From contig CM067360.1 of assembly GCA_034401795.1 (NCBI GenBank), positions 122,560,430 to 122,624,429 on the forward strand: 64,000 nt of DNA, read 5' to 3'. The translations under genes were made by a program, and so were the position numbers. Positions within the stretch are counted from its first letter, which is position 1; every line of letters starts with the position of its first letter. Shown one piece after another: positions 6,480 through 45,700 of this stretch. The stretch is from Chaetoderma sp. LZ-2023a (lineage: Eukaryota; Mollusca; Caudofoveata; Chaetodermatida; Chaetodermatidae). The notes beneath the pieces are model-generated. The model was given only the letters and a program-made list of their open reading frames with translations, did not search any database and was not told where the DNA came from.

Positions 6480-6869
6480 ATGGAGAAACAGACAGAGGGC
6501 TGCTGCAGTAGACCTGCAACCAACATTAGTCTACCCACAAATGATTACACCACATGTAAAATAAATGCATCCACCTCAGCCAAACAGACCATATCAGTCT
6601 CAGTTATTCCAACAAAGCAGACCAATCTACAAGATCATGTAGCGGATATGCAATATCCATTTCATCAACTCTATCATCCTCTACTTGCGAGGCCTCAACA
6701 ACAACAGTTCCAAACGCCAAGTCACAACCACCAAACTTTATTCCAACCACATTATCAACTTCACCCACCTTACCGTCAGTCACAAATCGACAAGTTGCTG
6801 CCACGGTTTAGAAGATTGCAATTGATACCGCCTCATCAGACTCGAATACAGTACAACAGCAGAGTTTAA
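6480..6869 (+). pseudogene. Possible ORF1 remnant of the LINE
   Basis: This is an open frame of 129 codons, rich in Gln, Pro, Thr and His, that lies directly upstream of the endonuclease frame. It has no recognisable RNA-binding, coiled-coil or zinc-knuckle motif. Its position and sense fit a LINE ORF1 tail or a 5' spacer. It could equally be chance; I do not assign a function. Confidence 0.3.
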
Positions 6870-6895
6870 CCTGGGCCAAAGGTTTAGAATTGAAG

Positions 6896-7405
6896 ATGGC
6901 AACGCTAAATGCAAAGAATGCAGAAGCAAATATGAACTACCTTCAGTTTCTCTCCAAGCAAAATTCAATTATTCTATTGCAGGAGCATTGGCTCTACAGA
7001 TATAAGAGTGGTAAATTTGCAGATGTCTACAACAACCCAAATTTTCATGTGAAATGCAGTGATGATGAGAATCCCATCCCCCCATTACAAGCACCTCGGG
7101 GCTACAGTGGAACTGCTATCACCTGGTCAAAGGATCTAGATATGTATGTTACTAAAATTTCAGATGGTTGCAACAGATTACTAGCCATAGAACTCGATGC
7201 GGACACTCCTATATGCCTGATCAATATCTACATGCCAGCACGGAACACTGCTCAAGCGGAAGAAGAGTACACTACTGTGCTCGACGAACTGCATGAAATG
7301 ATTGAGAAGTATAAACAATCCCATTACATCTTAATTGCAGGAGATCTAAATGCGTCACTGCCCAGAAATCAAGGTGTCTCTAGAGATAACATACTTAGGA
7401 GATAA
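6896..7405 (+). pseudogene. LINE APE-like endonuclease, N-terminal part
   Basis: The frame reads as an exonuclease-endonuclease-phosphatase fold domain that nicks target DNA for target-primed reverse transcription. Visible motifs are LQEHW (the metal-binding Glu motif), a central INIYMP strand and GDLNAS (the GDxN motif). The first ATG in this frame is at 6896. The frame ends at a stop just after GDLNAS, and the rest of the domain, including SDH near 7570, continues in another frame after a small indel near 7395. Confidence 0.85.
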
Positions 7406-10364
7406 GGTAGAGCATGATTTAGAACTTCCTAGTAACTACCCTTCTCAGCCAACATTCGGTTCAGCGAGTGGAAGAGCAAAATCCCAAATTGACTACTGGA
7501 TGTGTACTAGTAAATCAAAAGATTTGGTTCAACAAGTCAACATAGCTGACAAACATCATTTAAATCTCTCAGACCACACTGATGTTGGAATAACAATTTC
7601 AGTAAAATTACAGCCACAGTCACCATTGGCAGAATACAGTAAAAGCAATGTAAATAACCTGATAGCAACAGTTGTACGATGGAATAAATGTGATACAACA
7701 CTTTACAAAAATCTACTGAATGTTTCTCTAAAAGAAGACACTCCAAAGATTAGTTCAACCCTTGCTGCTGATCTACTTGTCCGGAAACTTTCAACTTTGA
7801 TGCATAGTGCCTCAATCACAGCAACTGCTCAGTCTAGAAATCAAAAGAAATCAAGAAAGGGCATCAAAACATGGACTCCACATATAGCTAGTTTAATACA
7901 CAAGAGTAAGAAGGCACATTATCTATGGAACATCAATGGTAGACCTAACAGCAACAACAGCAATATCAATAATAACCGTAAAGAAGCTTGTCAGAAGCTG
8001 AGACAAGCAATGCGACTACTAAACAGTGAAACGAGAACATCATTGCATAACAAGATCATGGAGGCTCATGAAAATGACAAGGAGACATTTTTCATGTTGA
8101 TAGCAAAGCAGCGCATAACTCGTCAAAGAGGGATGCATCAGCTTATTATTGATGGTGAAATATGCAATGATGATGCTGCCATCTTGAGCGTATTCAAGAA
8201 CCATTTTGGTTCACTCGCCACCCCCCTGGTAGACCAAGCCTTCGATGAAGAGCACAAGAGAATTGTGGAACTTGATGTCCAGACAATTGAAGACGTGTGT
8301 AGCAATCATACTACTGGGACAAAATGTGAATTTGTAACTGAAGCAGAGATCCGAAAGATCATTGCAGGATTTAAGAATAACAAATCAGCAGACCCGCATG
8401 GGCTAACAGCAGAACACTTAAAGCATGCACCAACTGTGGCAACACATCATCTCGTAAAGCTAATAAACTATATAATCAGTACAGGCTACATTCCATCTGA
8501 TATGAAGCAAGGAATCTTAACTCCAGTATTAAAGAATGGTAAGGATGAAAAACAGCCTAACAACTACAGAGGAATAACTGTCCTTTCAATTGTAGGCAAG
8601 ATCTTAGAAAAAGTAATTTTACAACGGACAAAGCAACGGCATGATAATGTTCAGTCAAAGCTGCAAAGAGGTTTCACTGAAAGATCATCATCAGTAAACA
8701 CACCACTTATTATTTCAGAAGTGATCAATGAAGCTAAAGACAATCATCAGCAGCTCAGTATGGTAACCTTAGATGCTTGCAAAGCATTTGACGTAGTGTG
8801 GCATGCGTCCGTACGCTGAAAGATCTACAACATTGGAATTGAAGGATTATTATGGCGAACCATCAAAGCGATATATACTGATGCTCAATCTTCCATCAAG
8901 ATGAAAAGAACCCTCTCAGACCCATTTGTGATATGCCAAGTAGTACGCCAAGGTGGAATTCTCTCAACAATCCATTACAAACTCTTCAATAACAACCTTC
9001 TCAAAATAATTGAAGATGTAAATATTGGTGCTAAAATTGGACACATTAACTGCAGTGCACCAACATGTGCGGATGGCATAGCCCTATTAGCTCAGGACAC
9101 TGATCACCTACAGGAGCTCTTAAACATAGTTCCTCAATACACACTTCAAGAGCGCTACACTATAAACCCTGGAAAAAGCGCATTGATTTCACTAAACAAG
9201 CGAACTAAATCTGCTCCAGTTATTCATCTAGGAGACAGACAGATCCTTGAATCTAAATGTGAAACTCACTTAGGTATTGAACGGTCAACAAATGGGAAAG
9301 GCAATGTAGAAAAACGCATTCAAGCAACAAGAAGAACAGTCTATTCACTGATCGGAGCTGGACTTCATGGAAATGGTGGACTTTCCTCATTAGCTTCAGT
9401 GCATATATGGAAAGTCTACTGTCTTCCAAGATTACTGTTTGGTCTAGAGGTCATTCAGATGACAAAGGCTGAGATTAGTGCATTGGAACTATTCCAACTG
9501 TCAATTCTTAAACAATTACAGTCCCTTCCAAAGAATACAACATCATCAGCAACACTATGCCTACTAGGAATAAGACCCATCCAAGCAGAGCTAGACTACA
9601 GAAAACTAAAACTACTAGGAAACATCCTCGGAAATGGCGATACTGTAGAATTCCAGATAGCAGCCAGACAACTTGCTGTAAAGAATATTAAGAGCAATAG
9701 TTGGTTTATGAAATGCCAAGAAACGCTTCATAAGTATCAGCTTCCAAGTGTCTACCAACTAATTAACAACATGCCTGCAAAGTTAGCGTGGTATGCGCAA
9801 GTTGAGAAGCACATAAACTGTGCTGTACACAACGTCTGGAAAGAAGACTTTGTCATGAAGACATCAACAAAATACTTAAATGTCAATGTATGCACTGTAA
9901 ACAACGTTCACCACTGTTGGAACTCACTTGACAACACAACCAGGGATGTTAGACGAGCAGTAATAAAGGCAAAGATTCTGACTGGCTCACACATCTTGCA
10001 AGCAAATCGTGCCCGTTTCAATCAATATATTGTCTCTGAAAAGTGTTTACTTTGCCATTCAACACCCGAGGACAGGAATCACTTCATTACATTATGTACA
10101 GCATTGGAGGAGTCAAGAAAACCATATTTGAAGAGTATTCTCACCACCATGTACCTAGAAAATGACCCAGTCATCATCAACACGTTATTAGCTGATCCCG
10201 AAAATACAACTCAGCTGATACTTGATCATACAATGATGATATCCAGATTGAATATTAAGCTGTCCCCAGCAAATTCTCTCAAAATTGCGAAAACTACACT
10301 TTTTCTCTGCTATGCCTTGCACCTCAAACGTACACAATTGATTGAGGCAATTGTGTCTGTATAA
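7396..10364 (+). pseudogene. LINE reverse transcriptase ORF2, broken
   Basis: The C-terminal endonuclease motif (LSDHTDVGI, about 7570) is followed by a linker and then a reverse transcriptase. RT landmarks are NKSADPHGLTAEHLK (about 8380), the NNYRGITVLSIVGKILE block (about 8560) and VTLDACKAFDVVWH (RT motif A, about 8765). A TGA at 8817-8819 interrupts the same reading frame, which then continues to 10364. The palm motif C, normally F/YADD, reads CADG (about 9065), so the polymerase would be inactive. Near 10048 a C-x2-C-x8-H-x4-C knuckle is present, as in several LINE clades. The frame ends at TAA 10362-10364. Confidence 0.87.
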
Positions 10365-15700: not shown

Positions 15701-18700
15701 TTCCGCATTTTTTCTTGCAGTCTTTCAAGATATTAAACTGAGAATTGGTCCGTTGCTTTGTTATGAGAAATTACAGGCCAAGTTCGAGTTTCAGGCATTT
15801 GCATCAATTTTTGATGGAGTTATGTCCCCTTTCAGCTTATGAAATACAAACATATCGGCTTTCAAGACTTTTTCGTTCTCCTTCACCATATGGTATATAA
15901 CTGAAACTTGGTTTATTGCTATGTTATGAAAAGTTAGAGATCAAGTTCGAGTTTCAGCTGCTTCTATCAATCTTTAATAAAAAATTTGACTCAATCTCTA
16001 AAGATTTATATCACCAGGTAGGGGACATGTATTGCAAAGCAATACTTACAGAATGCTTGTTTACTGTGCATTTTGTGCCTGATTCTTCCTGGAATATAAT
16101 TGGATTACAATGGAGAACGCCACCGATGCCCAGGTCATATTTTTCTATTAATAATCTAGTTATACAGAGACTTGAGTCTCTGAAATTTTGTGTGTGTGTT
16201 GTATGTCCCATTTTCTGACCCCGGAACTGGGACGTATGCTGCAATGAAGTATGCCAGGTATGATCGCATCCATTAGCCCCAACGGCGGTAATATGAAATA
16301 TTTCAGGTGTTTGTCTCAGTATTTAGCTCACCTGTCCTGAAAGGCCAAGTGAGCTTATGTCGTGGTGACCATCCGTCGTGTGTCTGTCCGTCGTCTGTTG
16401 TCCGTCAACTTTTCCTTTAAACGACTTTTTCTCAAGAACCGCTGGACCGATTTCAATTATATTAGGCAGGAAGCATCCTTAGGGCATAGGGATCCAAGTT
16501 TGTTCAAACAAAGGTGATCGGCCAATTTGGCCAGCGGCAATCTTGGATTTTGGCAGATTTTTAGAAACGTCTTTAAAAATCTCCAAAACTGCTTGAGGGT
16601 TTGAAGCAAATCTCTTTGAAATATGATCTAGGGCAAGAGCTCAACCAAGTTTGTTCAAGGGAACTTGATTGGTCCAATGGTTCGGCGGCCTTCTTGGTTA
16701 ACCTAGTCTTAGCGAAAATAACTTCTCCATCTTGGATTTCGGCCGATTTTCAGAAATGTCTTTAAAAATCATCTCCAAAAGCATTTGAGGGATTGATTCA
16801 GAACTCACGAAATATTATCTAGGGCAAGAGTTGAACCAAGTTTGTTCAGGGGAACTTGATTGACCTAATGGTTCAGCGGCCATCTTGGATGACCTGCTTT
16901 TCGCAAAAATGACTTGTTGCCCAGAACCGCTGAATCGATCATGCCGAAATTTGTGATATATGATTAGGGACTAAGGGCCAGTAAAGTTTGTTCAAGAGAA
17001 GTTGATCCGTCAAAAAACCTGGCCGCTGTGGGCAAATCAATATATAGCGTGTTTGGCATCCATATTGGATTTTTTTATTTGATGGATTTCGAGGCCGAAT
17101 TGGTTTTATATATGTTTTTGCGTATTGTAATTTGCCATTTTTGTGACTGTCCGATAAACGGTTTAGCGGCCATCTTGGATCATTTACCTGCCAAAATCTC
17201 CCATACTAAAGCAATGGAAAATTGTATTTTTCTTGCGCCATCTTGGATTTTGGTTGATTTTTAGAAATGATTTTAAAAATCTCCAAAACCGCTTGGGGGA
17301 TCAATTCAAAACACATGAAATATTATCTAGGGCAAGAGCTGCACCAAGTTTGTTCAAGGGAACTTGATTGGCCAAATGGTTTGATGGCCATCTTGGATAG
17401 CCTATTTTTTGCCAAAACAACTCCAGAACCAGTGAGCGGATTGGGCCGAAATTTGGGAGATATGATTAGGCACTGAGTGCCATTAAAATTTTTACAAGTG
17501 AAGGAGCTACGTCAGAAACATGGCCACAGTTGACCAATCAAAATGTAGCGTATTTGGCAGCCATATTGGACTTGCAAAAATGTCCACAAACTCATTTAAA
17601 AGACTACTCCTAAACCACCCACCAACAATTTCGACAAAAATGCGTAGTGCTCCAGGAGAGCGACACAGGCCTCTTGTTTAACACTAAAATTGGCTTAAGT
17701 CATTCAACCGTGTGGTCTGAGTGAGTGACGTCATACCCTTTTATGGCTCGAATTATTTTGGTGAAGGAAATGTTTCGTTAATTCACGCATCTTTTTCTTG
17801 ATGCGTTTAGTACCAGAAACTTATGAATTACTATGTTAAGTTTTGCGGGTATTCCCGATCTGTTTGCATTGATCGGTTATTTGAAAATTCTTGATTAGAT
17901 GTGTGTTCTGCGGCTCTACCATGTTCTACAGCAGTAATGTTAATTCATTATGTTGTTCCGTCTCGTTTCGTTTGTGTAGTACAATTTTGGAATTGATTCT
18001 TAAATATACCGCAAATGTATCCGATACAGTTCCTGGTTCCATTTTATACATCCTGCAGGATCAAGTTATGAGTGTATTATTGGCCCGTTCATGTTCTTAT
18101 TGCCAGCTTACGCAATCTTGGTTGTAATGTTTCGGGTGTTGGGTGCTGGAGGGTTAACTTCTAATTTATTGTCAAACTATTTGAAAATTATATGTCTTCC
18201 TTCCATTCTGTGTCATTGCGCTTGCTTATTGCGGCCTTGTGCTTGTTTTACAGGCCAAGCCAGCTCCGCCTTCATGCACTGAGTGCCATAAGCGTGTCAG
18301 GGCCATGTTCAAGGCCCATGTCTCTTTCAGATGTTCTAAATGTAATGTTGATGACTGTTGTGAATCATGTGCAGTGTGGCCCGTCGAGCAAATGGTTAAG
18401 TTCCTTGCCCAGAAGGACTTGGCTGGGTCTGACGCGGGGTCAGGCAGTCTGCAATCAAATCAAAGAGCGTCAGTTTCGGCCCCTGGGGGCACTTCTCGGC
18501 TGCAGTCCGAGGGATCAGAGATGGCACCCCCTGCATGGTTTGGCCCGCTATGCAAGGCTTCTTGGAGAGCGTCCTTCCGACGCTGGTGTCGTCTTTGATA
18601 CCAAAGACTGGTCCAACCTCTCTCCATGTCTCTGGTATGGACCCTGTCCTTGGACAGGGTTCTGGACTGGCTACCGGGGGTGCCATGTCGAATGACCCCC

Positions 18701-21700
18701 CTGGCGGTCCCGTCAGGCTCCGGCGTGATGAGTACTGCTTCTCCGCGGCCACCTCTGGGTGGTCCAGTAGCGATAGCCGGTCCGTCAGGTTTTCCGGGTT
18801 TCCGGAGGAATCAGTTCCGGTGACGTCAGGAACGAACGGAGTCGAGAGTCTTCACCCAAGCGATTTAGCGTCTTATCGTGCAATATCGACCACCAGCTGT
18901 GTGCAGATTCCTACCGTCGGAGGCAGACTTCAACTGTTCTCAAGCCAATGGGAACGGGTTGTGCGAGATTGTTTAGTCTGTCAGTGGTTAAGAAACGGCT
19001 ACGAACCGGACTGGCTCATCGTTAGTTCCATTAACATCGACTCCAGTGTGGACTCCCATTCCAAGGAATCCGATCGTCTAGATGCCATTTGCTCAGAAAT
19101 CGAAGCTCTTCAGCGGAAGAACGTGATTCATCTAGTCCGCAATCAGTCCTCCCTAGGCTTCTATTCGATGATGTTCCTCGTTCCAACACATACCAATTCT
19201 CAAACTCAAACCGTTGAACAAATTTATTCTTTGTCCAAAGTTTCAGATTGCTCCTCAGCACTGAGGGTCTTCACCAAAGTGGTTCTCGCCATGACTTATT
19301 ATCTTCGCAGGAGAAACATAGCTGTTCATACTTACATAGACGACTAGTCGACGAATCCAGTCACTGCGCAACAATCTTCAGGTAGTCCTAGCCTTGCTAA
19401 AGCACCTAGGATGGATTGTGAATCTAGAGAAATCAGAATTGACTCCATCCCAGGATTTTGTTTATCTGGGAATATTTTTCAACCTCAGCCTTTCCGGCGG
19501 AGAGCAGAGTCAAGAGTTTGATTGCAGTACTGGAGTCAGTTTCTCTAGGAGCTTTTCTGATGGCGCGCCAATTTCTCAGTATACTGGGTTTACTAGTGTC
19601 TCTGGAGAAAGTGGTTCCTTATGCGGCACTCAGGCGCAGGCCGATTCAGATGTATCTAATGTCATTCTGGTCTCGGAGAACGGATCCGTTATCTCTGAGA
19701 ATTCCAGTAAAAGAACCATTGATATTCCACCTTCAGTGGTGGTTATCAGAACAGAATCTCCTGCAAGGTGTTCCTCTACAACCTCCTCAACCACAAATGT
19801 CCATCTTCACAGATGCATTAACGACGGGTTGGGGAGTGGTATTGGACAATCAGTCAGTGTCAGGGGAATGTGATCGGACCAATGCGCAGAAACATATCAA
19901 TGTTCTCGAATTATTAGCAGTGGCATTAGCACGTCGAGAATTCGAGAACTTAATCAGAGACAAGATTGTCCTAGTAAGGACAGACAACTCAACAGTGGTG
20001 TCTTATTTGAACCGCCAAGGCGGGACGAGATCACCGGAGTTGTGTATGATGATTTGGAACCTTCTGCTGTGGTGCCAAGAGAGGAATGTTATTCTTCGGG
20101 CAGCACACATTCCAGGAAGACTGAACATCTTAGCAGATGCTCTCAGTCGAAGGACGGTTTGTCGTCCGACGGAGTGGCAGCTCAACGAATCGGTAGTGGA
20201 GGTTCTATTCAAACATTGGGGCAAGCCAAATGTGGACCTGTTTGCGATAAAACAGAACGCAAAGATGGTTACATACGTGTCACCGATCCCGGACCCGCTA
20301 GCTTTAGCAGTAGACGCACTGGCGATAAGTTGGAAGGGAATGTACACGTGTGCGTATACTCCAACGATTCTCATCCCAAAAGTTCTGGCAAAGATAAGAG
20401 AGGGTATGTGCCAAGTACTGCTGATCGACCCTTATTGGCCAGGCCGATCATTGTTTACCGATCTGCTGGACCTTCTGGTCTGCAATCCAATCCCTCTTCC
20501 AGACAGAAGAGATCTAATCTCTTAGAACAAAGGTCTGTATCTCCACGACAGATCGGAAATGTTCAAATTGACTGCATGGATGTTATTGAGAATTCTTAAT
20601 ACTTACCAGATGTACTATGGCCCTTCCTCAGCCGCCCCGCTGAGGTGAGGCTGAGCTGCTTTCACTGTTTGTCAAGGCAAATATAAGACGAATCTGACTG
20701 TGATTGGGAATTGACTCAGTACCTGCGGCTATGGTAATTCCCGGACACAGTATGGGCAGGACCAGGAGAGTGCGGAGTTTTTAATTGTTTATTTTGAGTT
20801 AGACTAGATAATAGGCATTATCATAATACACATTGGATATTTGTGATGTTCTCCCCCTGCGGAAATTATTTGACAAACCAAGCTTACATTCTTAAAAAAT
20901 GATAAATTTTGATTTTTAGTCTTAACGCTTCTGGCAGTAATTTTTTATTTGGGATTTTCACTTTTCCTATCTTTATCCCTGTTTTTGATGTATTTTACAC
21001 TTAAACAGTGTTTACAATGACTTTTTATGGTACAGCCTCCTTTACCTCCCCTTCTAGCCATCCGTTCCTCCCACATAAATCTTTATTAACACACACAACC
21101 CAGTTAGACTCTACAAACATAGGTTGAAATTGAATTAAACTCTGCAAACATGGTATGATATTGGATTTAATTCAAACAATTCAATTTTTGTCATCACTAC
21201 TTATCAATGAGTCATTTTCTACTGAATTTGTTGTTGAAAGTTCCACGGATGTATCCGTACTCATACTATCATCTACGTCATAATTGCTTTGAAGCATCTG
21301 CTCCACTTGCTTTCAGCAGTCTGATCCTCCTGATAGCACATTCTGTGCGTTGTAACCATACACACTGGCAAGCCATTGATTTCTTGCACGCTTGATGTTT
21401 CCGATCAATTTTTGTGAATGTTTCACTGCTTCTAATTCTTGTTTCGAAGGTGTGACAGTAGTCTTGCGTTGTTTTGAAGAAGAGTTTTCACTATATGGAG
21501 GATCGGCTTCACGCTTTCTTTTGCGTCTTTTAATGGTTGGTGCTGCAGTACAAGCTCGAGTTCTTGATCTTGTTGTGATACTTGTAGTTACTGCATCAGA
21601 AAGTTTGGTAGCACCCCAATTCGGAGCAGAACTTGTTCGACGTTTGCCAACAATGATCTCTTCTCCGGTTTTCGGGATTTTGTATCCTTTTTGGAATTCT

Positions 21701-24700
21701 AGATAATCGTAGTGAACTGCTTCAAATGCTTGTTCTGGAACTTTTAGCGGTGAATAGTTGTGCTTTTTTATCCAGCACTTCATTTCATGTGTTGCTGTCC
21801 ATATCTTTGGAGATAAAAGTTGTCGATCACCTCGAGTTGGAAACAGCTTGACATATGCATCTGAAAATGCTGTGTATGCTGATTCGAATTCCTCAATAGT
21901 CTGTTCCCAATTTGGATGCAGATTCAATGACATTGTATGGGAAATAAGCTTGTTGTATGCTGAAAGCGATTCAATAAGAAGACATATGACATCATATTTG
22001 TATTGTGCAGACTTGATTGGAGGTGGATGTGAAGAACTTGAAGATGCAGGTGGTGTTGAAAGAATTTTTCTGAGTTGGTCAGTTGATTCTGCTAATTGAC
22101 GACGAGCATTTCCTGCAAACGCTGCTTTCCCACCACGTTTGACATCACGATTCACACCAACTTCAGCAAGCCATTTGTTGGTAAGTTCAATGTCAAGATT
22201 CTCTAGATATTGAACGTGACCTGTTACTATTCCGAGATTTAAATAAAGTTGAGGTGGCGGAAATAAGTCAAGAAGTGATTCATTATTGTGCTGTCTGACA
22301 AATTTTGCTGGCTCTGCCTGAACACTGTTGAAGTTTTTTGGATCAGCAGTAGCATTCCTTTCTTCTTCCTTCTTCCTAGCATCATTATCTGCGACAAGAG
22401 TTAATGCTGTATGGACAGTATCAGGTTCTGAATGTTTCTTCCACGGTGAAAACAAGCTCCAAATCAATGGCCCTAGAGAGCCATGCTCTCCGATTCCTGC
22501 AATTTTGTTTGCTTGTTTCATATCAACCGGAACAACGATTTCTGCATTCGGAAATTTCCGTTGAAGAACATTTTTGTCGATGAGATAATCACAGATAAAT
22601 TTCATTGATTTGAAAGTCTCTTTTGCTCCGCTGATCAATCCTAGAATAAACACGCGACGAACACTGGTATCAAAGACTCTGCCATTCTTGAGTGTGTGTT
22701 CCATTCGCTCATTTTCAGTTGCATTTCTGTTGAGAATAGGATCATCATTGTAGATGAGTTGAGCGCACAACTTTAGGGAGCCTCTTCCTCCATCGACATT
22801 AAACTTTATTAGTGAGATGTCTTTGTTTGTTTTTTCTCGGATTTTTGTCACTCAATGAAATCAGCAACGTCCGTACATAGAACAGCAGCACCGTCATCTG
22901 GTGAATGATCACAATCTACAGATTTGAAATTTTCAGCAAATACTTGATTCAGTTTTGATTTGTGCTTTCTGAATCTTGAAGCTGATGGCACTGATACATC
23001 ACGTAGACCAAGAGCTGTAATCCCTCTTGCTAAACTTCTTCCGGTTGATCTCATTGCTGTTCCCATTGCTGACACATCATCCAAACTTAAAGATCTCTGT
23101 TTTAATACAACTGTTCACTTTCTTCGTTTCAGGAGAGATATTTCTTTCTTTGGTGATGGGGTGTTCTGCTTTTTGATTAGTTCAGAAGAAGATGCGATAA
23201 ATTCAGATTTCGTGTCCGCTGGCTGCTGATTGTGCCTCGTTTGTCGAAGTTGCACTGCTGTTTCTAAATGTTCTTTAATTTGTTCTATTCGTTTATCTGA
23301 AAAGCAATGCTTTGAATCTTGCCACTGTAGATTTCGGAGGCAAGATGGACAAACTGACGTTGGAAAAGCAATAATATCTGTCTTGTAGATCGGGAAGAGT
23401 TTGGATAATGCTGAGAGCATCTGGATTATCTGGCAAATACAGGATTTTTGAATTTTTCCCTGTCACTGAACGCCACTTCTCTCTACCTATTTGTTTAAAG
23501 TTGGGACACATCACACATTGTCTCATTCGTTGCTTGTCAATTTCCAATGCATCATTGTCATAAATCGCGTGTGGCTATGGATTAACGCTTGTTGTGAATG
23601 TAGACATCCTGTACTCATGTAATTGCCGTTTGGATGATTCAAAACCTGTAAAAGAAAAACAAATTTTATTAATAAAACCTGATAAAATTATATTTTAATG
23701 CACAGTCCATTGAAATCCGATCAGGGATAGCAATTTATGAATATTTGAATGGACTTCTACTGGACTATGGACATTAAAACACGTACATTTCCACAAAATG
23801 GGGTAAAAAAACATTGTAAAAAAGTTCTGCCAGATGCCTTAAGAATAAAAATTGAAATTTATCATTTTTTAGGTGTGTTAGTTCGATTCCACACATAATT
23901 TCGGCAGGGGGAGAACATCGCAAATATCCGATGTGAATAGTACATCTGGTAAGTAAGAATTCTCGTAGAAACAAAAGCGAGCGGATGCTTTTTTGAATCT
24001 CTGACCACGCCAACCGGTAGTCATTCCATCCTGGAGTCTATCTTTGGTGCTTAATGTGCTAGCCAAGCCCCCTTTCAAACCTTTGGGTTCGGCTAGTCTA
24101 AAGCATCTCACTGTTACGGTGGTCTTTTTATTGGCAGCTTCCTCAGCCAGAATGCACATTGAGATCCATGCGCTTTCAGCAGAGAGGGACTGATTTATTG
24201 TCTCTGGAGAGGGTCTGCGACTGCTGCCAAGAGCAGAATTTATGTCAAAGAACCAATCTGAAATATCCCGGCAAACCAATCATTATGCAAATGTTAACTA
24301 GGTTTGATCGTGATGCCAGTGCCTGGTGTCCAGTCCGTGCTCTGACCAAGTACTGTGAGTCCTCTTTCATGGATTACTATATGAGGGATATGTCAGACTC
24401 GGCCAATCCACATGCTTTAGCTGTATTGAAACATTAGTGGCCACACTATTCATCTCCTTATGGTAACTTTGATGCAAACGTAGTGATGACAGACACCCCC
24501 TTGGCAAGAGGAGTTCAACCCGAAATGTCACATCTGGTCGAAAGTGTGATGGTTGGTGACGTTGTGTCTGGAATCCAAAATTCATGCGGCAATTCAAGTT
24601 AGACTGTTTTTTGTATTATGTTTCTATATCATGTTCCTTCATCTTATATATTCATGCTCATTCCCAGGCTTATTGTGTGTCAAGAGCAGTTAATCATCTT

Positions 24701-27700
24701 GGCACACTTGTGTTTTCAGGCGAGATGCATGTTCATGAGTTCTCTTCCCTTTTTGTGTGAGTGGGGGCGGTGATGCGAATGTGAATCGGTCCCAAACTTG
24801 TCAGTCCTTCTAGGTCTCCGTGTGACAAGTTTAAGTCTAGATCTTTCTCTAGGGGCAAAAGAGGCTTTGTATGGCTTGCCCCTTCCCACCAGGTTACTGA
24901 TCAAATCTGGTGTTGTATGATAAGTAATGTAATGGTAAGTATTGATCGAAGGCGAATGAAGGAAATTTCAAGTTCCCTTTCTCCGAGATCTAACAATACT
25001 TACCATTGCATTATGGACCCTGCCTTCCAGCCTCATGGAGGCAAGCCCTGAGTTAGTTCTTGTGTGGTAGCTATGCAAACAATGTAACTGGCTCATGGTG
25101 GTGGGTACCCATTTGTTGGGGGTGGGTGGGTACCCGGTTCCAGGAGCCGGTTAGAGCATTCTAAATCTGAAGATTCTTAGGGCACAGCAATTGAGGGTGC
25201 TGCTATCTATAAGTAATGTAATGGTAAGTATTGTTAGATCTCGGAAAAAGGGAAATTGAAATTTCCTTCACTCCACAGCGTAGTGGCTACTACTATAGGG
25301 CGAACCTTTTCTAGCTTAGCCCCGCCCACTTATTATGTGCGTGAGGATCGATTTGAAACTTTGAAACCTGAATTCCCAGAATCTAAATTTCACAGTAAGG
25401 TGTTGAATATTTTGAAACTAATTTGACTGGAAGCTGTTGTTTCCTATAGTAGCATGATCTCCCAGTCAAATTAGTCTCAAAATATGTACACGTGTTGAGA
25501 TAAATTAACCCTTTCAAAATATTGTTTTCATTCAGAAATTCATCAAAGACATAGCATTCGTACACTTGTCATACTTGTGTGACAGACTTTTTGAGTTTCA
25601 TGATATCTTGTAACGTCAGATAACTAATGACGTAATGGACCTTTCCAGTTTTAGCTATTCTCCGCCAATCCCTAGCTAAGCTCCACCAACACCTCACTCA
25701 TCTTGTGATCGATCAATCCCCGAACTCCTTGACTATCAATTTCCAGAAAACTATTCAGGTAGGCTGTTTAATATTTTAAAACTAATTTAACTGTGTGCTG
25801 TTGCTGCCTAAATTAGTTTCAAAATATTCAACAGCATGTTTATTAAATAGCAGACATACAATTCTTACAACGTGTCGGACTATTAAGCATTTAAGATGGA
25901 CTAAATCGAGTCATTCATGTGGTAATTCATTAGGACATCATCCTACATGTCGCCTAGTTGATTATAACATCATATGATGGATCGCTAAACTGGAAATGTT
26001 ATTTGATTATGCCATAGATACTGTGAGTGACAGATCAGATATGATCACTCCATTACAGTCTCAGTCTCAATAGTCTATCTCCTCACATGCAGAGTCTTCC
26101 AAACAGTATGTAGGAGAAAGAGAGATGATATGTGGTGAGAGAGTGAAAGAAGGTCATATAACCCAAATTTGTGATAGGTAGCGAAGAGGGGTCATGGTAT
26201 TTAGTTGGTGGATCCAGTAGGCTTCCTTGCATCTCCAGAGTGGAGTGTTATTGTCCACATTATGGTCTCAGAACTTTGATGCTGCTGATGGAAACGCATG
26301 TTGTTTTATAATGAGGCAGATTGAAATGCCTGGCGATAGAAGAATCTATGTTGTGACTAATATCCCTGAAGTGCTCCTGTATTCTCATCTCAAACTGGTG
26401 TTTTGTTTTGCCAACATATTGTTTTTGGCAATATGTACAAGTCTTGAGATAAAGTAACCCTTTACTAGTAATGCCGTCCAAAACCAGCCGATGAAGTGTT
26501 CTAGCGGAATGGATATTTGCAGGGCAAAAGAAGACTATTTTTTAAAGTTTACCCCTGTAATGATTGGCTCTGTAACCGAGCCAGTCATTCCAGTGGTAAA
26601 TTTTCAAAAATAGTCCTTTCTTGCCCTGTAAATGAACACTCAAAAGGAAAATGTTTATTTCAATTTTTCTCAGCCAAATTTGACCATTAAAGGGTTAAAT
26701 TCCTGTTTAGATAATTGCCAATAATTCTGGCTGGTGCACTTCGTATGTAACAGACCTCTGAAATCACAGCCAAGAACACCTCCGCTCTATTACCAATCAA
26801 TAGAGATACTGGTACATGTATATACAATGTATTATCTTAAACAGATCATTGTTGAACACTTAACATTTAAGTTGTTATTACACCACAAAAACATTCATTA
26901 CCGTTCAATCACTACTTGCTAAATCAATTATCTGCATTTTGCTACCAGAATAAGATTTTTATGCCTGCATACCCACCTCCCCATGCCTTTTCCTATACCT
27001 ATGGACCCTCAACCAGGCCTCTGGTTGAGTCCCCTCTCCAGCCTACCATCAAGTATAGACTGGCACCAGTCTATACTCACCTCATAGTGACGCTTGTCGC
27101 TAGGCGCGCTCGCGCATGCGCATTAGAGCCCGAATAGGAAACAGATTCACTTTTCAATTATTCTGCAAGCAGAATAGTTGGCCAAAAATATTTGAATAAA
27201 TTTTGTGTTTTGCGCTGTGACAGCTGTACCTGTGTCTTTATATCAAGGATATAATCATACCTAATATGAAGTCAATCCTCCCTAAGTTACGTCTAAGGAA
27301 GTATAATTGTGTTTGTACGGTATCTTATAGACGAATTTGAGATATTACCGGTTTTCGCGAAGATCGTATTATTTCGTGGTATCTTGATTGTTATGCCTAT
27401 CCTAACTCATCATCATCATTAATAATGTCCAGTCCATATTGAGAGCCTGTAACAAAGTTATTTTAGTGCATTATAAGGATTATTTTAAAAGAAAATACCT
27501 TGAAGGTTTCTTGAGAGTCAGGAATTTGAATTTTCCCGCCGTTAAAAACTGAACTGAGGTTTTCTATTGTTGGCGAGTTTGAGTGGTATGCTTCATTGTT
27601 ACGTTTTTTCGTTTGTAGGAGTCAGTGAAATCAGATAAGATTAAATGTACGTCGGCGAAATGTGATCGTCATCACGCAATTGAGTTCGCCGGGCATGTTT

Positions 27701-30700
27701 GTGCGAAGTGTACGACCTGTACAACCACTGCTATGTGTGGGATATGTAAAGGGTGGACGGTTTCGGTTGCGAAATTGTACTTTAAAGATTTGTCGAAACA
27801 ATCGCTGCCCTCTGGTCGTCCTTCCCCTTCCTCCGTTGCTAGCAAGGCAAAGGCGGTGTCCTTTGCTTCAACCTCTGTTCCGTTATCGGTAGCAACGGAG
27901 GGGGGAAATTCATCGGGAAATTCGGATGCCGTGATGGCGCTCTTTGCGCGGTTTGAATCGTTTGCCAATGTATTGACCAAATCGCTCGATGAAAGGATCT
28001 CTTCTGCAATAAAAGAGGCTAAAAGGCAGGAGAGCTCGTCTAGCTCCGAGGGTAGCCCGAAGGCTAGCGGGCGTTCCCGCAAATGGGGGAAGCCGGTCCC
28101 TCTGACCTCGAGACAGGTGTTGGTATCACCAAAAAAGCAGAAGACAGCTAAGCTCTTGAAGGTGTGCTCGGAGAGTGCACCACAGAAAATCCACGTACGA
28201 CTTGCGGGTGACGGGCATAACCCTCAAGCAGTGGTGGCGTCGGCTGAAACCGGCGTCCATGAGGCTAGTACTCATGAAAATGCCAATGTAACGGTGGTTC
28301 CGGTAGTTAAAGTAGTCTCGAGAACGCCTATGCCTAAGAGGTCGATACCTAGTCTTGCTAGTTCCGGTTCCGGTGTGGTAGACTCGGGTCATTTGGACTC
28401 GGGTTTACTTCCGTTTTACGATTATCAGTCTTTTTCCGGCCGGACTTCCGGGATAGCAAGACATCCGGGTCGTCAAGATCCGGTTCCGGCTTCGGTAGCT
28501 TCCGTTTTCGGTAGGACTTCCGGTTTGGGTGGTGATCCGGGTCGGCAAGATCCGGTTACCACTTCCGTTTCAGTAACTTCCGGTCTGTCTTCCGGTTACC
28601 GTTAAAATTCGACTAAAGGACGCAGTTTTTTGGTCAAAACACATGTACTAGAAAGGGGGGGTGCATACTATAATCGAGAACATTCCTTCCGCACATTTTT
28701 GGGTCGAAATTTTTCTTAAAGGGTCACAGATTATACCACGGAAATTGAACTAAATGTTACCCTAGCCAATTCGCGCCGCCTGACGACTATGTTTAATGTA
28801 TACTCCAAAAACACCAAGCGGAAGTGAAATTATTAAATTGGGGCGCCTAAATATTGCTTATTCTTTAATACATATCACTTATTACATCAAAATTAATCCA
28901 GAATTTGACATAAAATGGCATCGAGAAAAGATACATGTATAAATCACGTGATTCGCCTCCAATCGCAAAAGATCTTTATTCTAATTAGAGCGAGTACTCG
29001 GATATAAATATTCTGGACTCGGAAATTGCTATATATCATCATTGCGCGATAGGAACTGAATGTTCCCGTACCTGTTTGATAACCAACTCCCATTAGCGCA
29101 TAAGATTACACAGCGCCTCCAATCACAAAAGAGGCAGATAACCAACTGCCGTTAGCGCATAAGATCACACAGCGCCTCCAAACGCAAAAGAGCCATTACA
29201 ATCTGTTTCTATCACGCTATTTCGATGTTTTCAAGGAGACATTTTATGCCAAAATTAGATTGATTTTGATGTAATAAACAATCTTTATTGAAGATACATG
29301 ATATTTACGCGGTCCTATTTAATAATTTCTCTAACATCATGATAATTTTTAGTCATGCATTAAACATGACGCGGAGTGATGGTTATTTTTGATACCAATT
29401 TTTGATTTTTTAAAGGTACGTTTTTTTCTAAATTTAACAGCGTCTTATACTTGAATACAAGAGTTTTTTGGGCAGATTTTGGTCAAATTTGGGACAGCGT
29501 CCTATATTCGAGGGCGGGCTTTAGTCGAGAAATTACGGTATGTAGGACATCCGGGTCCTAGAGGTCTAGTGTCTACTTCCGTTTCCGGGTCTGTTAACGC
29601 TTCTGGCCATTCCGGATATCCGGAGTCTGAGGACTCTTTTTATTTTCCGAATTCCGGTAGAGGCGTTTCCGGTTCCGGGGTGGACACTAGTCAGTTTACT
29701 TCCGCTTCCGGTATTAGAAGTGTACTTCCGGGTCGGTCAGACCTGGAAGTAATTCCGATTTCTGTTTCCGGTAGGGAGTCAGCTTCCGGTTTAGTGAGAG
29801 AACAAGATTCGTTAGGCCCAGCTAGATTAGGGGATGTTAGAACTTTGATTCTGGTCCAGCAAATTCGCAAAGGTTTTCTCAGGATTCGGCGGATTCTGTT
29901 TATGATTCTTTCCTTCCTCCAAGGGTCATTGATGTTGAGTTATATTCTCATGCGGATTCTTCTTTTCGTGATGCTGTGGTTAATCCGGTTTTTCTAAATA
30001 TTCTTCCCGTTCCTCTTCTCCCTCGTCGAAAGACTTCTCCTCTTCTCATGTTTCTAACTCTTCTCCTCTGTTTAAATCTTCCATTCCGCCTCCTCCGGGC
30101 TTTGCTCGTCTGCATTCTACTCTTCTTTCTTCTTCCTCTCAGGATCAGTGTGATCAGGCTTTTGCTTCTGCTCAAGCAGTTTCGTCTCCTCCTTCCTCTC
30201 TGGCGTCGTCTCCATCATTTGGTCATCTGGATCCGGTTGTTTCGGTGGTTCTGTCCCCTGAACTAGAATTTCAAATTGTTGATTCAGGGTTAGATTTTTC
30301 GCTATTTTCAGTGGTTAGAGATGCTTCATTAGATCGTTCTTTTGTGTCTGCTCGCTTGTCTATTCTTTCAAGATTTTCAGCTTCTTCAGTGGTTCATCGG
30401 CTAGTCAGGAGGCGGGTGGAGATTCTGGGTCCATGCATGCTTCCTATTTTCATGAATCGGTCAGTAGGCCTTCCTCTCCTGTGTTTTCGAGGGCAGGTGA
30501 TTCTTTGGTCTCAGGAGACTTCAATTCTTATAGCTTCTTCTTATTCTCCTCCTCCTCTTCTGTCGTCTATATCTTCTGCTCCAAAGTCAGTCAAGGCCAG
30601 GGATCTGAAGAGATTTTGCCCAGTTAGGGCCTCTTCGGAAGACTGGTCCATGGCTCACAGTTGGATTGCTTCTTCGCTTTCTCTTCCTCTTAAGGAGGAA

Positions 30701-33700
30701 TTCGCTGTGGATCCTCCTTCTTTCGGATCCGCGCTTTCTTCTGCTGATCCTTCTTCATCTTCTCCTCAGGTGCTTCCTATTGACAATTTAGTGGTAGATA
30801 TGTTAGATTTTTTCGTTAATGACTCGGTTAGCTCTGAATTTTCTCTGGATTCCAAGTATGACTCGCCGGTTCAGATTCCCAAGGAGGATTTTTTAAAGGT
30901 AGCTGCTGCTGAGTCTCTGTCTGGTCCTGCTTGGGAGGTTTTATCATCTCAGTTGAAAGAGGTTTCTAAGTCGGATTTTTCTTCGGATCTGTTTAAATGG
31001 GAGTCAGTTTGTAGGTCGCAGATTAAGTCGTCTAATTATCTTGCTCTGCTGTCTGAGGCCGTTCTTAAGGCGGAAGAAAAAGGTGAACAAGTTCCGGTGG
31101 CAGTTTTTCGTTCTTTGGCTGATTTGTCCCGGGGTTCTCTTAATTCTGTTTGTAAGTCGTTAGGATTTATTACTTCCAAACGTCGCTCTAGAAAGCTTTC
31201 TGAGGTTAGGATTTCTGAGGTGTTGAAACAGAATCTTGTGGTTGCGTCTCCTTTCGGGACTGATCTGTTTGGAGAGTCAGCTCCTAGTTTAATTAGGGCA
31301 GAATCTGAGTGCTTGAAGGCCTCTAGGGAGCTTCAAGCTCAGGTTTCGTGGACCAAATCTTCCGGGAAAAGAGATGTTTCTTCGGTTAAGAGCCCTAATT
31401 CTTCACCTAGAAGAAAGAGTCTCAAACCTGATCAGTTTGGAGCTTATCCTTCTAGGGTCATTCATAACTCGAATTTGTCCTCATCTGATCAGCGGGATCG
31501 ATCTGTGGAGGAGGATCGATTCGACTCCATTTCCTCCCATCGTTCGAGGTCGGTAGGGAGGCAGTCTCCTTCGTCTTGGGCGAGGAGAGGTCAGACCCCT
31601 TCTCGCCGTGCGTCTAGATCCAGAGGACGGTTTTCTTTTAGAGGTTTTCAGGGGAAGAGAGTTTGAAGGTTTGGACAGTTCCCGGGTAGGTCCAAATGTC
31701 TCTCTTCTTTATCCCATTCCTTCCCTTCTTCCTCCCCCTTTGGAGCAAGCAGTTCAGTGCTGTGTTCCCAACATGCCAGTAGGAGGGCGCCTTTCTCTGT
31801 TTTGGGCGAAATGGCAAGCCCTCATTCAGGACTCCTGGCTAGTATCCCAGATACGTTGGGGTTACGCTCCGTCATGGATCCGTCATCCTCCTCTTCTCTC
31901 CTTTTGCCCAGTGTGGACTCCAGTTCCCTCCAATCCGGAGAAACTGAGGGCTTTGGAAGAGGAGTTGGAAGCCATGATTGTAAAGAGGGCTATAGAGGAA
32001 GTTCCCAGTTGGCGAGTAGACCCGGGCTACTACTCGACCATCTTTTTAGTACCAAAGAAATCAGGAGGTTGGCGTCCAATCATAAACCTGAAGAAGTTAA
32101 ATCAGAACATTCTCACCCCAAAGTTCAAGATGGAAACGGTTTCCCAGATCATTTCCAGTCTGGATCAGGGAATGTGGACGTCTTCCATAGATTTAAAGGA
32201 CGCTTACTTCCACGTTCTTATTCATCCTGTATTCAGAAAGTTCCTGAGGTTTGCCTACAAGGATCAGGTGTGGCAGTTTCGCACCATGCCCTTCAGCCTG
32301 ACCACGGCTCCCTTCCTTTTTACCCGCATAGTTTCAGCCGTGGCAGTGGATGCCCTGTCTCAGTCCTGGACAGGGATGTTCGCTTATGCCTTCCCTCCTA
32401 CTATTCTGATCCCGTTAGTGTTGAAGAAGGTCAAGGACCAAGTTTGCGAGATTCTTCTGATAGCTCCCTTTTGGCCCAAGAAGATTTGGTTTGTAGACCG
32501 TCTGGATCTTCTGGTAGACTTTCCTCGTCTTCTGCCAGTATCCCAGGACCTTCTATCTCAAGTAAGGGGTCTTTGTGTACATCCAAGTCCAGGAATCTTC
32601 AATCTGTGCGTGTGGCGAATCTCGAGTCTGAAAGCTTCCAGGATAAGTTGTCTGCAAGGTCTCAGGAAATTATTGACTCGGCCAGAAGGAAATCGACCCG
32701 TCGAGTTTACAAGGGTCGCCTTAAAATCTTTGGTAGATGGTGTTCAGACCAAGGTTTCGTGCCCGATTCTGTTTCTATACCACAAGTTTTAGATTTTTTA
32801 GCTTATCTGTTTGACTCTTTACATTTGTCAGCTAACACTGTTAGGGGGTATAGATTTTCACTTGCATCTTCCATTCCTTGTCTTCTGAATGCCGATGTCA
32901 AGGATACTAAGACTCTTAATAGCTTTATTAGAGGTCTAGGTAATATTCGTCCTCAGATTGCTAAGCCTTTACCTGCCTGGAATCTGGTTCTTCAAGTATT
33001 GGCCGGTCGCCATTTTGAACCTATATCGTCTATCAGTCTGAAACTTTTAACTCTTAAAGAGGTTTTTCTTGTGGCTGCTGCATCTGCTAGAAGGCGTTCA
33101 GAGATTCATGCTCTTTAATCAGAAAGGGATAGATTTATAGTGTCAGGTGACGGTTTGGATTTATATCCGAGAAGGGATTTTCTATCTAAAACCCAGTCTA
33201 ACCGTTTTCCTGCTAGTCCTATTATTTTAAAATCTTTGTCGTCTTTTTCGCCTTCAGACAAATTTTGGTGTCCTGTTAGAGCGTTAAGAACTTATAAACA
33301 GCGAACCGATTTTAAAAGAACAGATCCTGCCCACTTATGGGTTTCCTATGTGGAAGAATTATCTAAGCCGGTATCAAAGGCTACGATTGCCAGATGGCTT
33401 TGTGAGACGATTAAGCTTTGCTACGAAATAGCGTCTCCGGATCAAATTAATCTGGCGCATATTAAAGCCCATGATGTTAGGGGCATATCTACTTCTTTCG
33501 CTCTTTTTGCCGGTTCATCGTTAGATGAGGTCATGCAGATGGCAGGATGGAAATCTGAATCTACTTTTACTTCGTTTTATCTAAAAGACCAGAGTGCAGC
33601 AGCTTCATTCTTTCGTAATATTACGATTTTAACTAAAAAAGCCGAAGACCATATACCCAGCACCTCCCACCATTTTCGTTAGGACTGTGCGTCTGTAAAA

Positions 33701-42700: not shown

Positions 42701-45700
42701 AATGTTTTATTTTGTTTTGGGAACATATTAAATTATTTTTGAGCTGTTCTGTACAAAGTGATTGTGACTAGGAAATTCTGCTAACACTCATGGCTTTATA
42801 CTAGCACTTTAGGCCATCCTTATTTCTCAAGACCACAACAGACGCCATTTTTGGCCAGCTTGCGTGTTAACCCTTTGACACTGATATCAGCCAAAAACGG
42901 CTTCTGCAGTGGTCTTGAGAAATATCCATTTGCAGAGCAAGAGAAGACTATTTTTGAAAATTTACCACTGGAATGACTGGTTCAATATAAACCGAGCCAG
43001 TCATTCTAGTGTTAAATTAAAAAAAATAGTCTTCTCTTGCTCTGCAAATGGACATTTCCTATGAGAAAATTTAAATTTTCTTGAACAGATTTAAGTGTTA
43101 AGGGGTTAAAGCATAAACAGAGTTGTTTCTTATGCGAGATGATGTGCTGTTCTCCGCAGGATGGTGATGATCCATTGGTGTATAACACTCATGCAGAGAT
43201 CGTGAGTCTTCCTGATCCAGAGATTATGATGGTACGTAATGAGAAAGATGCAATGATAGATGAACTACGGTAACACGATAATGACGTCGTGAGGTTATAA
43301 AATACCTATCATAGACAGTAACATTGCGCCCCTCCCCCCCCCCCCCTCCCCCCCAAAAAAAATAAAATTGTAAAATGTGCACCAGTTTCTTTGCACAGTA
43401 AAAGATAAAATAATGGCATCAGCGTGGTACGGGTTAATGAAATACTGCATAGAAAGTCATCTGTTCACTGGTCAAATAGAGGAATACATTTCTAGCTATA
43501 CCCCACCCATTTATAATAGTGCCCGGTCAATTTAGTTTCAAAATATTCAACAGAATTTGTATTAAATTGTAATATAATCGAAAGACATAAAATTCATACA
43601 TCTTTGTAACAGACTTATGTCATTTTAATGGACCTTTTCAGTTTATCCATCAATCATATGATGTCATAATCAACTATGTGGCGTGTAGGATGATGTCATA
43701 ATCAATGACATCATGAATGATGTAGATAAGTTCATCACGAATGCTTAATTGGTGATCGACTAAGTGTTGTTGTTGTACGAATGTATGTCTTTACTATTTA
43801 ATAAACATGCTGTTGAATATTTTAAGACTAATTTGACTGGGCGCTGTTTCTGCCATAGGCAGCAACAGTACCCAGTCAAATTAGTCTCAAAATTTTCAAC
43901 AGCTTACCGGTATAGTTTTCTGGAAATTGATAGTCAGGCAGTTCTGGGATCGATCGATCCCAACATGGGCGGAGTGCGAGTGGAATTTAGCTAAAACTGG
44001 ATTTTTCCATTGTGACATCAGCTAACAAGTGATGTAAATAACGGTATTTGATTATGACATCATATACTTGAGTAACAGGTCAGATACCGCCATGGCAATC
44101 TGCTTACATGGTGTAATAAGTTGAGCTAATTAATGCCATTCTGTTATGATGATGGTGAATCCATATGTTTTATATAATTATGGAAATATGCATGCGATTG
44201 CAGCATGGGCATAACAGCATTTTCACTTCAAGAGTATGCTTACCTCCCTAATACTCTTTGATATTGCTAAATATCGGCTTTCACTCAATAAAAACTAAGG
44301 TTAAAAAAGTTACGTGCCCCTACTGGACAGGTAGTCAGATGACAGTCTGGCGGATGCTAGCCCCACCACCGTGCATGCGCAGACTAGTACTTCCTCTTTG
44401 CTAATTTATTGGCGGAGAGTCCACATGCAAATTTTTGCTATAAAGTTTCTGCTGGTTTTTCCACTCAAATAATAGAAAAAGAATACCTGAGAATTATGTC
44501 AGAACACGCTATGTCTCCAGAGGAGGGCCCAGGACCTAATTATCAGGTGAATTCAACTACACTTTAGCGAGTTTGTTCCGTTGTAATGTGTTTCCGGGAC
44601 TCACGTTTAGAGTGATAAGCGCCTAAAAAACTGGTTTATTTATATTATGGCGCTATGAAATACAAATCTCTCTTTGTGTTTATGTCCACAGGTATCTATC
44701 TATGATTGATCAGGACAGCACATCATCAGAGGGTTTGTTTTTCTCTCCACCAAGGTTCCATTTCCTACTAACATTGTTAGGTAATCTAACCAAAAATTCT
44801 ATGCCCAATGAGTTGGAGGCCTCGGAATAAGGTCTTCTCACTTTGCCCTCTTGGCCCACTTCCTTCCCCTTTTAGGTGGAGAGAGTTAAGAGGTCATGGT
44901 GTTGATGGAGCTTCCAGTGCATCAGAGCGGATGGTTTGTCTATGCTAAAGACTCATGTATTCTAGTTATGATATGAGGCACTTCAATTATATTTGAAAAT
45001 ATTTATGAAATCTGCTGCCATTTTATCATTGTTTATCTGATGTTTGTATAGTCTATATACACTATCCTTTCCAGTTAGGATGTTCTGGATATGAATACAA
45101 TTCGTCCTTACACCTGGATGTTTGTTTCGGATCGATTTAACTTCTTATTTTTGAAGTTATGACGTCATAATCAGCCTTGCACCTTTCTTCATTAAATGTG
45201 TTGTCCAACGCTGATTTAATATTAGCTTGGGTCTTTATGGCCCCCAGCCTCCTTGTTTATTTTGGTTTTGAGTTTTCTAATTCAATAACTGAAATACTCA
45301 TTGTCTTCATCCTCTGGCTTGTTTCAGAGACCTGGTCGTCCTTCATGTGGAAGGTTTATCAAGGATAGATTCACCCCCCCCCCCACTTATGCTCCCAGTG
45401 CAGCCCATGTGGGCCATTGCTTAAATGTGAGATCTGTAAAAAGTGTGGGGGGGGGGTTAGAGCTAATGTCTGAATTTTTATCATTGCAGTCCAAAGAGAA
45501 GGCTCTAGAGGAGGAGAGGAAAGTTAAGAAGGAGGGTTCTGGTAAGAAGGGTAAGAGGAAGGCCTCGTCCTCTATGGATATGGAGGCCTTCCGTATTGAG
45601 ATGATGGGAGAGATGAAGAGGACAATTAAGGATTTGGTCCCAGAGTTGCTTCGTGGCATGCTTCCTGGTTCAAATCCTTCGTTGTCCTCTTCATCTGCTT

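Follow-up and report, generated by a model that had tools for sequence, protein, structure and literature searches.

A CAC-ended transposon family of Chaetoderma sp. LZ-2023a with a predicted RAG1-type transposase and replaced zinc-ligand positions

The 64,000-nucleotide stretch of contig CM067360.1 of the mollusc Chaetoderma sp. LZ-2023a analysed here (the window) contains, at 20829..23935, a broken minus-strand gene between inverted repeats, and the question raised by this locus is whether the gene belongs to a mobile element and, if so, to which group of transposons. CAC...GTG ends, inverted arms of about 119 bp, 4-bp duplications at many unrelated sites and paralogous empty sites are shown for this element, which very probably represents a family of cut-and-paste DNA transposons with little divergence among copies, about 3.1 kb long and of autonomous build. 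Its transposase is predicted to fold like RAG1, the enzyme behind antibody gene rearrangement, and lacks C(2)C and H(4)H, the zinc ligands that RAG1 is reported to have in common with related transposons. The element would work like a CMCT (Chapaev-side) transposon.

Ends, target duplications and genome copies

The left end of the window copy, CACATTGG, begins at 20829 and its right end, ...CCGATGTG, finishes at 23935, with AATA on both sides; the adjoining 2-, 3- and 5-bp words differ, so that the duplication is of 4 bp only. The inverted arms extend over about 119–122 nt with 82% identity (119 nt), and 38 of the outermost 41 bp are identical (counted on the alignment). The initial annotation, made from the letters alone, had described 41-bp terminal inverted repeats starting with CAC and an AATA duplication; the start, the outer 41 bp and the duplication are all as described, while the arms are longer than it supposed. 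A 23-base end pattern, searched with up to three mismatches, finds two matches in 64 kb, both of them the element ends, and none in 100 shuffles. Furthermore, the ATA adjoining the right end is part of the right arm of a small element, which provides independent support for AATA as the target sequence.

In the host genome (2.44 Gb, 2,753 contigs), the 512-aa protein of the window copy matches at least 78 pieces, a lower bound in which one copy may account for several pieces, mostly at 88–96% identity and at 62% for the weakest. Copies were analysed in a sample of 30 loci, 21 of which, including the window copy, present both ends; L002, L008, L009, L017, L021 and L026–L029, with one end missing in the fetched stretch, were left out of the duplication count. 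Exact 4-bp duplications flank the element in 18 of the 21 remaining loci, against none at 3 bp and none at 5 bp, and the control pairing of flanks from different loci gave 4 exact 4-bp matches in 420. Other copies with both ends and 4-bp duplications, which the initial annotation had proposed to look for, are therefore present in the genome. Because L023 and L024 are the halves of one inverted duplication, 17 of the 18 duplications are independent. The exact 4-mers (AATA, ATCA twice, CGAC, GCAA, AACC, GTGC, AAAT, GATC, AGAC, ATAT, ACGC, TTCG, CATC, GTGA, GGCT and GGGT) are diverse and hence reveal no strict target word, unlike the TWA of Chapaev3 (PMC4079192; here and below, PMC numbers refer to passages of the papers concerned). 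The loci with both ends and no exact 4-bp duplication are L003 (TTAC/TTGC), L025 (ATCA/GTCA) and L004, in which the left end is eroded. Matches of other lengths occur at 2 bp in two loci, at 6 bp in L016 and at 8 bp in L012, the last two in simple repeats, and 19 of 21 loci have CAC at both ends, with L004 and L006 deviating at one end.

Empty sites were sought with the 21 joined flank pairs, minus one copy of the duplication, in a search limited to the window and the 30 loci, and junction-spanning matches were obtained for eight of them (L005, L007, L010, L011, L014, L018, L022 and L025). Among seven junction matches inspected, a single exact 4-mer is present for L005, L007, L011, L018 and L025, with the empty site of L018 located in the window itself (47686–47957). 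The L010 match is a satellite in which other units differ in the 4-mer, the L014 match shows a one-base difference with gaps nearby, and a second match for L025, in L008, also differs by one base. No empty site was obtained for the window insertion from a comparison of its own flanks with a related DIRS-like copy, because the alignment ends before the junction. Full copies measure 2,491–3,143 bp, and their median pairwise identity of 97.0% speaks for a recent expansion of the transposon family.

Several insertions are associated with duplications or repeats of the host. L023 and L024 (G000:C1, about 110.31 and 110.32 Mb) contain the same insertion twice, in opposite orientation and some 16 kb apart, and are an inverted duplication in the host chromosome. 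The right flanks of L004 and L026 (G000:C11, about 130 kb apart) are 97% identical across 155 bp and may stem from a duplication that took the insertion with it. L007 and L010 are insertions in tandem satellite-like arrays, their joined flanks matching themselves. A scan for relatives or ends in viral contigs and prokaryote genome contigs found none.

Transposase gene, zinc-ligand positions and surroundings

The window copy is dead, with premature stops and frame changes, and its longest readable part is the 512-aa frame P0001, which stops where the frames of several other copies continue (Table 1). The single minus-strand gene of the initial annotation can be upheld for the three motifs that it named, PEQAFEAVH among them, which all lie in this frame; its two N-terminal C-x2-C pairs are also present, but the stops and frame changes leave them in different frames. 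Direct searches with the window protein recovered five relatives only, one of them from the gastropod Gigantopelta aegis (73% over a quarter of the query), and the window group compared below comprises six proteins.

The zinc site of RAG1 is formed by C727, C730, H937 and H942 (PMC4914335). At the place of C(2)C, the first Cys is Leu in all six group proteins and the second is Ser or Asn in the five that are readable there, and no CxxC was found after D2 in P0001. P0001 and P0002, the only group proteins long enough, have both H(4)H residues replaced, P0002 reading Ala and Glu. The genome copies follow the same pattern, with Leu at position 129 in 27 of 29 (two gaps), Ser at 132 in 25 of 29 (one Cys, one Arg and two gaps), Trp at 351 in 27 of 28, His at 355 in 26 of 28 and Glu at 356 in 25 of 27. 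The LH His is retained in 27 of 28 copies and in P0002–P0004 (P0006 reads Ile where its sequence ends), and the Tyr at this position is private to the window copy. The replacement of the zinc ligands, seen in nearly all copies, is thus a fixed trait of the transposon family and does not reflect the decay of one copy.

Table 1. Features of the window copy, in window coordinates
Feature	Position	Strand	Remarks
Left copy of 4-bp target site duplication, AATA	20825..20828	.	
Left terminal inverted repeat, CACATTGGATATTTGTGATGTTCTCCCCCTGC..., ~119 bp	20829..20947	+	3' side of gene; other copies with same end
512-aa open frame P0001, covering the catalytic domain (RNase H type) and the C-terminal portion of the transposase	21313..22851 (stop included)	-	
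E377 codon, catalytic Glu in PEQAFE	21721..21723	-	Aligned with RAG1 E962
W351...H355-E356, place of H(4)H ligands (RAG1 H937, H942)	21784..21801	-	Both replaced, His one residue off
Residue 203, LH position (RAG1 H795)	22243..22245	-	Tyr here; His in other 27/28 copies read
L129-I-W-S132, place of C(2)C ligands (RAG1 C727, C730)	22456..22467	-	Without Cys
D110 codon, second catalytic Asp	22522..22524	-	Aligned with RAG1 D708
D20 codon, first catalytic Asp	22792..22794	-	D in 6/6 group proteins and 80/80 wide-family rows; putative equivalent, by position, of RAG1 D600
N-terminal gene part, three overlapping frames (22848-23114, 23115-23462, 23293-23574)	22848..23574	-	
N-terminal C-x2-C ... 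C-x2-C zinc-finger-like segment	23340..23517	-	Two frames here; one frame in L003 and L020
Right terminal inverted repeat, minus-strand reading CACATCGGATATTTGCGATGTTC...	23817..23935	-	Upstream of gene
Right copy of 4-bp target site duplication, AATA	23936..23939	.	

The window copy adjoins the right arm of the small element mentioned above (arms 20588–20618 and 23937–23964), inside a DIRS-like retroelement. The small element, of about 270 bp without the transposon, has inverted arms GAGAATTCT(TAA)TACTTACCAGATGTACTAT, which contain a splice-donor-like GGTAAGTA. Frames at about 18165–24437, 27619–33682 and 45289–48707 presumably belong to three DIRS-like retroelements, some frames having Pfam RT, RNase H-like or integrase SAM-like matches, and the third of these retroelements is the empty-site paralog for L018. 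Elsewhere in the window, frames of the non-long-terminal-repeat retrotransposon type with Pfam RVT_1 matches lie at 6812–10364, and a stretch of about 47 bp resembling the L004 flank has ten matches in a tandem-repeat-like block at 53865–54485.

Protein relatives and competing explanations

The initial annotation had pointed to a resemblance with a widespread, unnamed group of invertebrate proteins. A consensus of this wider family, used as query, matched 328 proteins, 120 of which are listed (P0007–P0126); two species names, Hydra vulgaris (LOC105845381) and Brassicogethes aeneus, appear among these 120, and none of them carries a precomputed Pfam domain. Profile-profile comparison relates the window group to the wide family with an E-value of 5.7e-42 (6 vs. 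30 sequences), and a profile of 30 wide-family proteins detects the window frame (E 2.1e-40) and also other copies, the best of them with an E-value of 1.1e-49. The N-terminal parts match with probability 96 and E 4.8e-9, starting at the second Cys pair, and the finger segment alone reaches probability 50. DGG, D.K..N, PP..LHL, GN and SEQ..E are common to both sets. The resemblance is thus one of homology, extending through the catalytic domain and into part of the N-terminal region, but the family is not wholly unplaced: 11 of the 86 sequences in alignment A5 match DUF1280 (E ≤ 0.01), two with inspected scores falling below the Pfam cut-off, and DUF1280 has been identified with Chapaev transposases (PMC3985635). 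P0001 and P0002 match no Pfam family and do not reach the cut-off for DUF1280 (PF06918), and an NCBIfam scan of the window protein returned nothing.

The motifs C(2)C, LH and H(4)H, which have been described for Chapaev (PMC4079192), all occur in the wide family. Unlike the window group, all 115 proteins with the D2 motif among the 120 listed of 328 (five are without it) show PCxxC, and 109 of the 115 show H(4)H under a strict pattern (112 under a looser one); many members possess an additional Cys/His finger. In alignment A5, none of the 80 wide rows lacks either Cys, and each His is present in 79 of them. In a tree of 46 rows, built with every second of the 80 wide A5 rows and including the short P0005 and P0006, the six group proteins are separated from the 40 wide-family rows by a long branch (SH-aLRT 100).

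These data bear on two placements of the element. It is close to an even call that the family stands next to Chapaev, within the CMCT clade, as a lineage of its own at superfamily level, with a RAG1-type transposase devoid of the structural zinc site hitherto reported for RAG1 and for the lineages of this clade, and an insertion domain held by other packing; the element has not been filed as Chapaev proper because two of the three named protein motifs are missing, even though ends and duplication fit. A distinct possibility, which we rate somewhat below even, is that of a Chapaev transposon sensu stricto, in which the zinc-motif difference would be drift inside the superfamily. CAC ends and a 4-bp duplication agree with this explanation (PMC4079192), as do the weak matches of the wide family to the Chapaev-associated DUF1280. 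It is opposed by the lack in the group of C(2)C (first Cys 6/6, both 5/5 readable) and, where readable, of H(4)H, motifs reported as C(2)C and H(3-4)H to be common to Chapaev and other CMCT lineages (PMC12730594), and by the long branch. No report of a zinc-ligand-free CMCT lineage was found in the open-licence PMC literature, in which no search was aimed at exactly that.

The predicted fold of the transposase is an RNase H core of RAG1 type with a long, mostly helical insertion, in line with the RNase H core whose presence the initial annotation had proposed to check, and the closest solved folds to the model are RAG1, HzTransib and BbRAGL. Several observations weigh against the main reading, that of a cut-and-paste family with a RAG1-type transposase without zinc ligands. 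Sequence searches of the PDB reached neither RAG1 nor any transposase and hhalign to one RAG1 sequence gave a probability of only 27, so that the link to RAG1 depends on the modelled fold and the motif register; the fold model, in turn, needs the wide-family sequences, the six group sequences alone yielding a pLDDT of 49. The zinc argument draws on few proteins, with C(2)C readable at both positions in five of the group, P0005 readable at the first Cys position only (its own model diverges there), P0003 and P0004 mutually close, and H(4)H readable only in P0001, its copies and P0002. Moreover, the Cys at position 132 in one of 29 copies, together with the His at 355, makes another metal arrangement possible. 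Lastly, no fully open copy was seen among the 30 loci, in which L003 has an 851-aa frame with a single stop.

The nearest solved folds and the CAC ends could also point to a RAGL/ProtoRAG or Transib element, that is, to a mollusc RAG-like transposon. This explanation is quite improbable, given duplications of 4 bp with none of 5 bp in the 21 loci, the absence of a second long frame from the 3.1-kb element (RAG2 itself was not searched for) and the lack of a RAG1 match by sequence. A fortuitous arrangement of repeats on either side of a pseudogene, as might be imagined for a broken copy lying inside other repeats, is refuted by the ends, duplications and empty sites shared by many unrelated loci.

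Inferred mechanism and comparison with known systems

For a CMCT-type element with a RAG1-type transposase, the proposed mechanism would involve a single protein of about 800 aa, in which a linker connects an N-terminal Cys finger with an RNase H domain of RAG1/Transib type (D20, D110, E377), and which would pair both element ends. RAG1 and HzTransib nick outside CAC and generate a hairpin on the flank (PMC6941560). By analogy, the transposase would nick at the outer side of CAC, leaving a hairpin on the flanking DNA and blunt element ends, and the excised ends would then be joined with a stagger of 4 bp, vs. 5 bp in RAG/Transib. The insertion would presumably hold together without the structural zinc of RAG1.

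This interpretation has two implications. On the one hand, widespread invertebrate proteins labeled as uncharacterized become linked through homology to a transposon whose ends and 4-bp duplications are well supported and, according to the fold model, probably also to the RAG1/Transib/Chapaev fold. On the other hand, a lineage that has multiplied in a genome although almost all copies read have these ligands replaced is a natural experiment on the purpose of the RAG1 zinc site. That site is reportedly essential for DNA cleavage, according to the title of a 2009 paper by Gwyn et al.

Kolobok elements have TTAA as their target duplication; the window family does not fit this class, with no TTAA among the 17 independent exact duplications. 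For the systems described in the literature, the comparison also draws on PMC7642931 and PMC9885083. With RAG1, RAGL and Transib, the window element shares CAC ends and, as predicted, the fold and the order of catalytic residues, and it differs from them in their 5-bp duplications (reported for RAGL and Transib; PMC7204232), the zinc site of RAG1 and the RAG2 partner of RAGL. ESTA, Plavaka, Lanisha and EnSpm have a RAG1-related DDE core, mostly CA...TG termini and duplications of 2–5 bp (PMC12730594), features in which they resemble the window element (for the core, as predicted). They differ from it by the C(2)C and H(3-4)H that they reportedly share, by the TA duplication of ESTA and by the 3-bp duplication of the EnSpm families covered in that paper. 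Chapaev has been placed as a clade, together with RAG1, in a broader Transib superfamily, with an N-terminal Chapa domain and, in some cases, a RING (PMC4411706), and its hallmarks are CAC...GTG ends, a 3–4 bp duplication and the motifs C(2)C, LH and H(4)H (PMC4079192). The window element has in common with Chapaev (CMC) the CAC...GTG ends, the 4-bp duplication, a DDE transposase and the LH motif (27/28 copies), whereas the absence of C(2)C and H(4)H, and of any DUF1280 match for P0001 and P0002, sets the window group apart from Chapaev.
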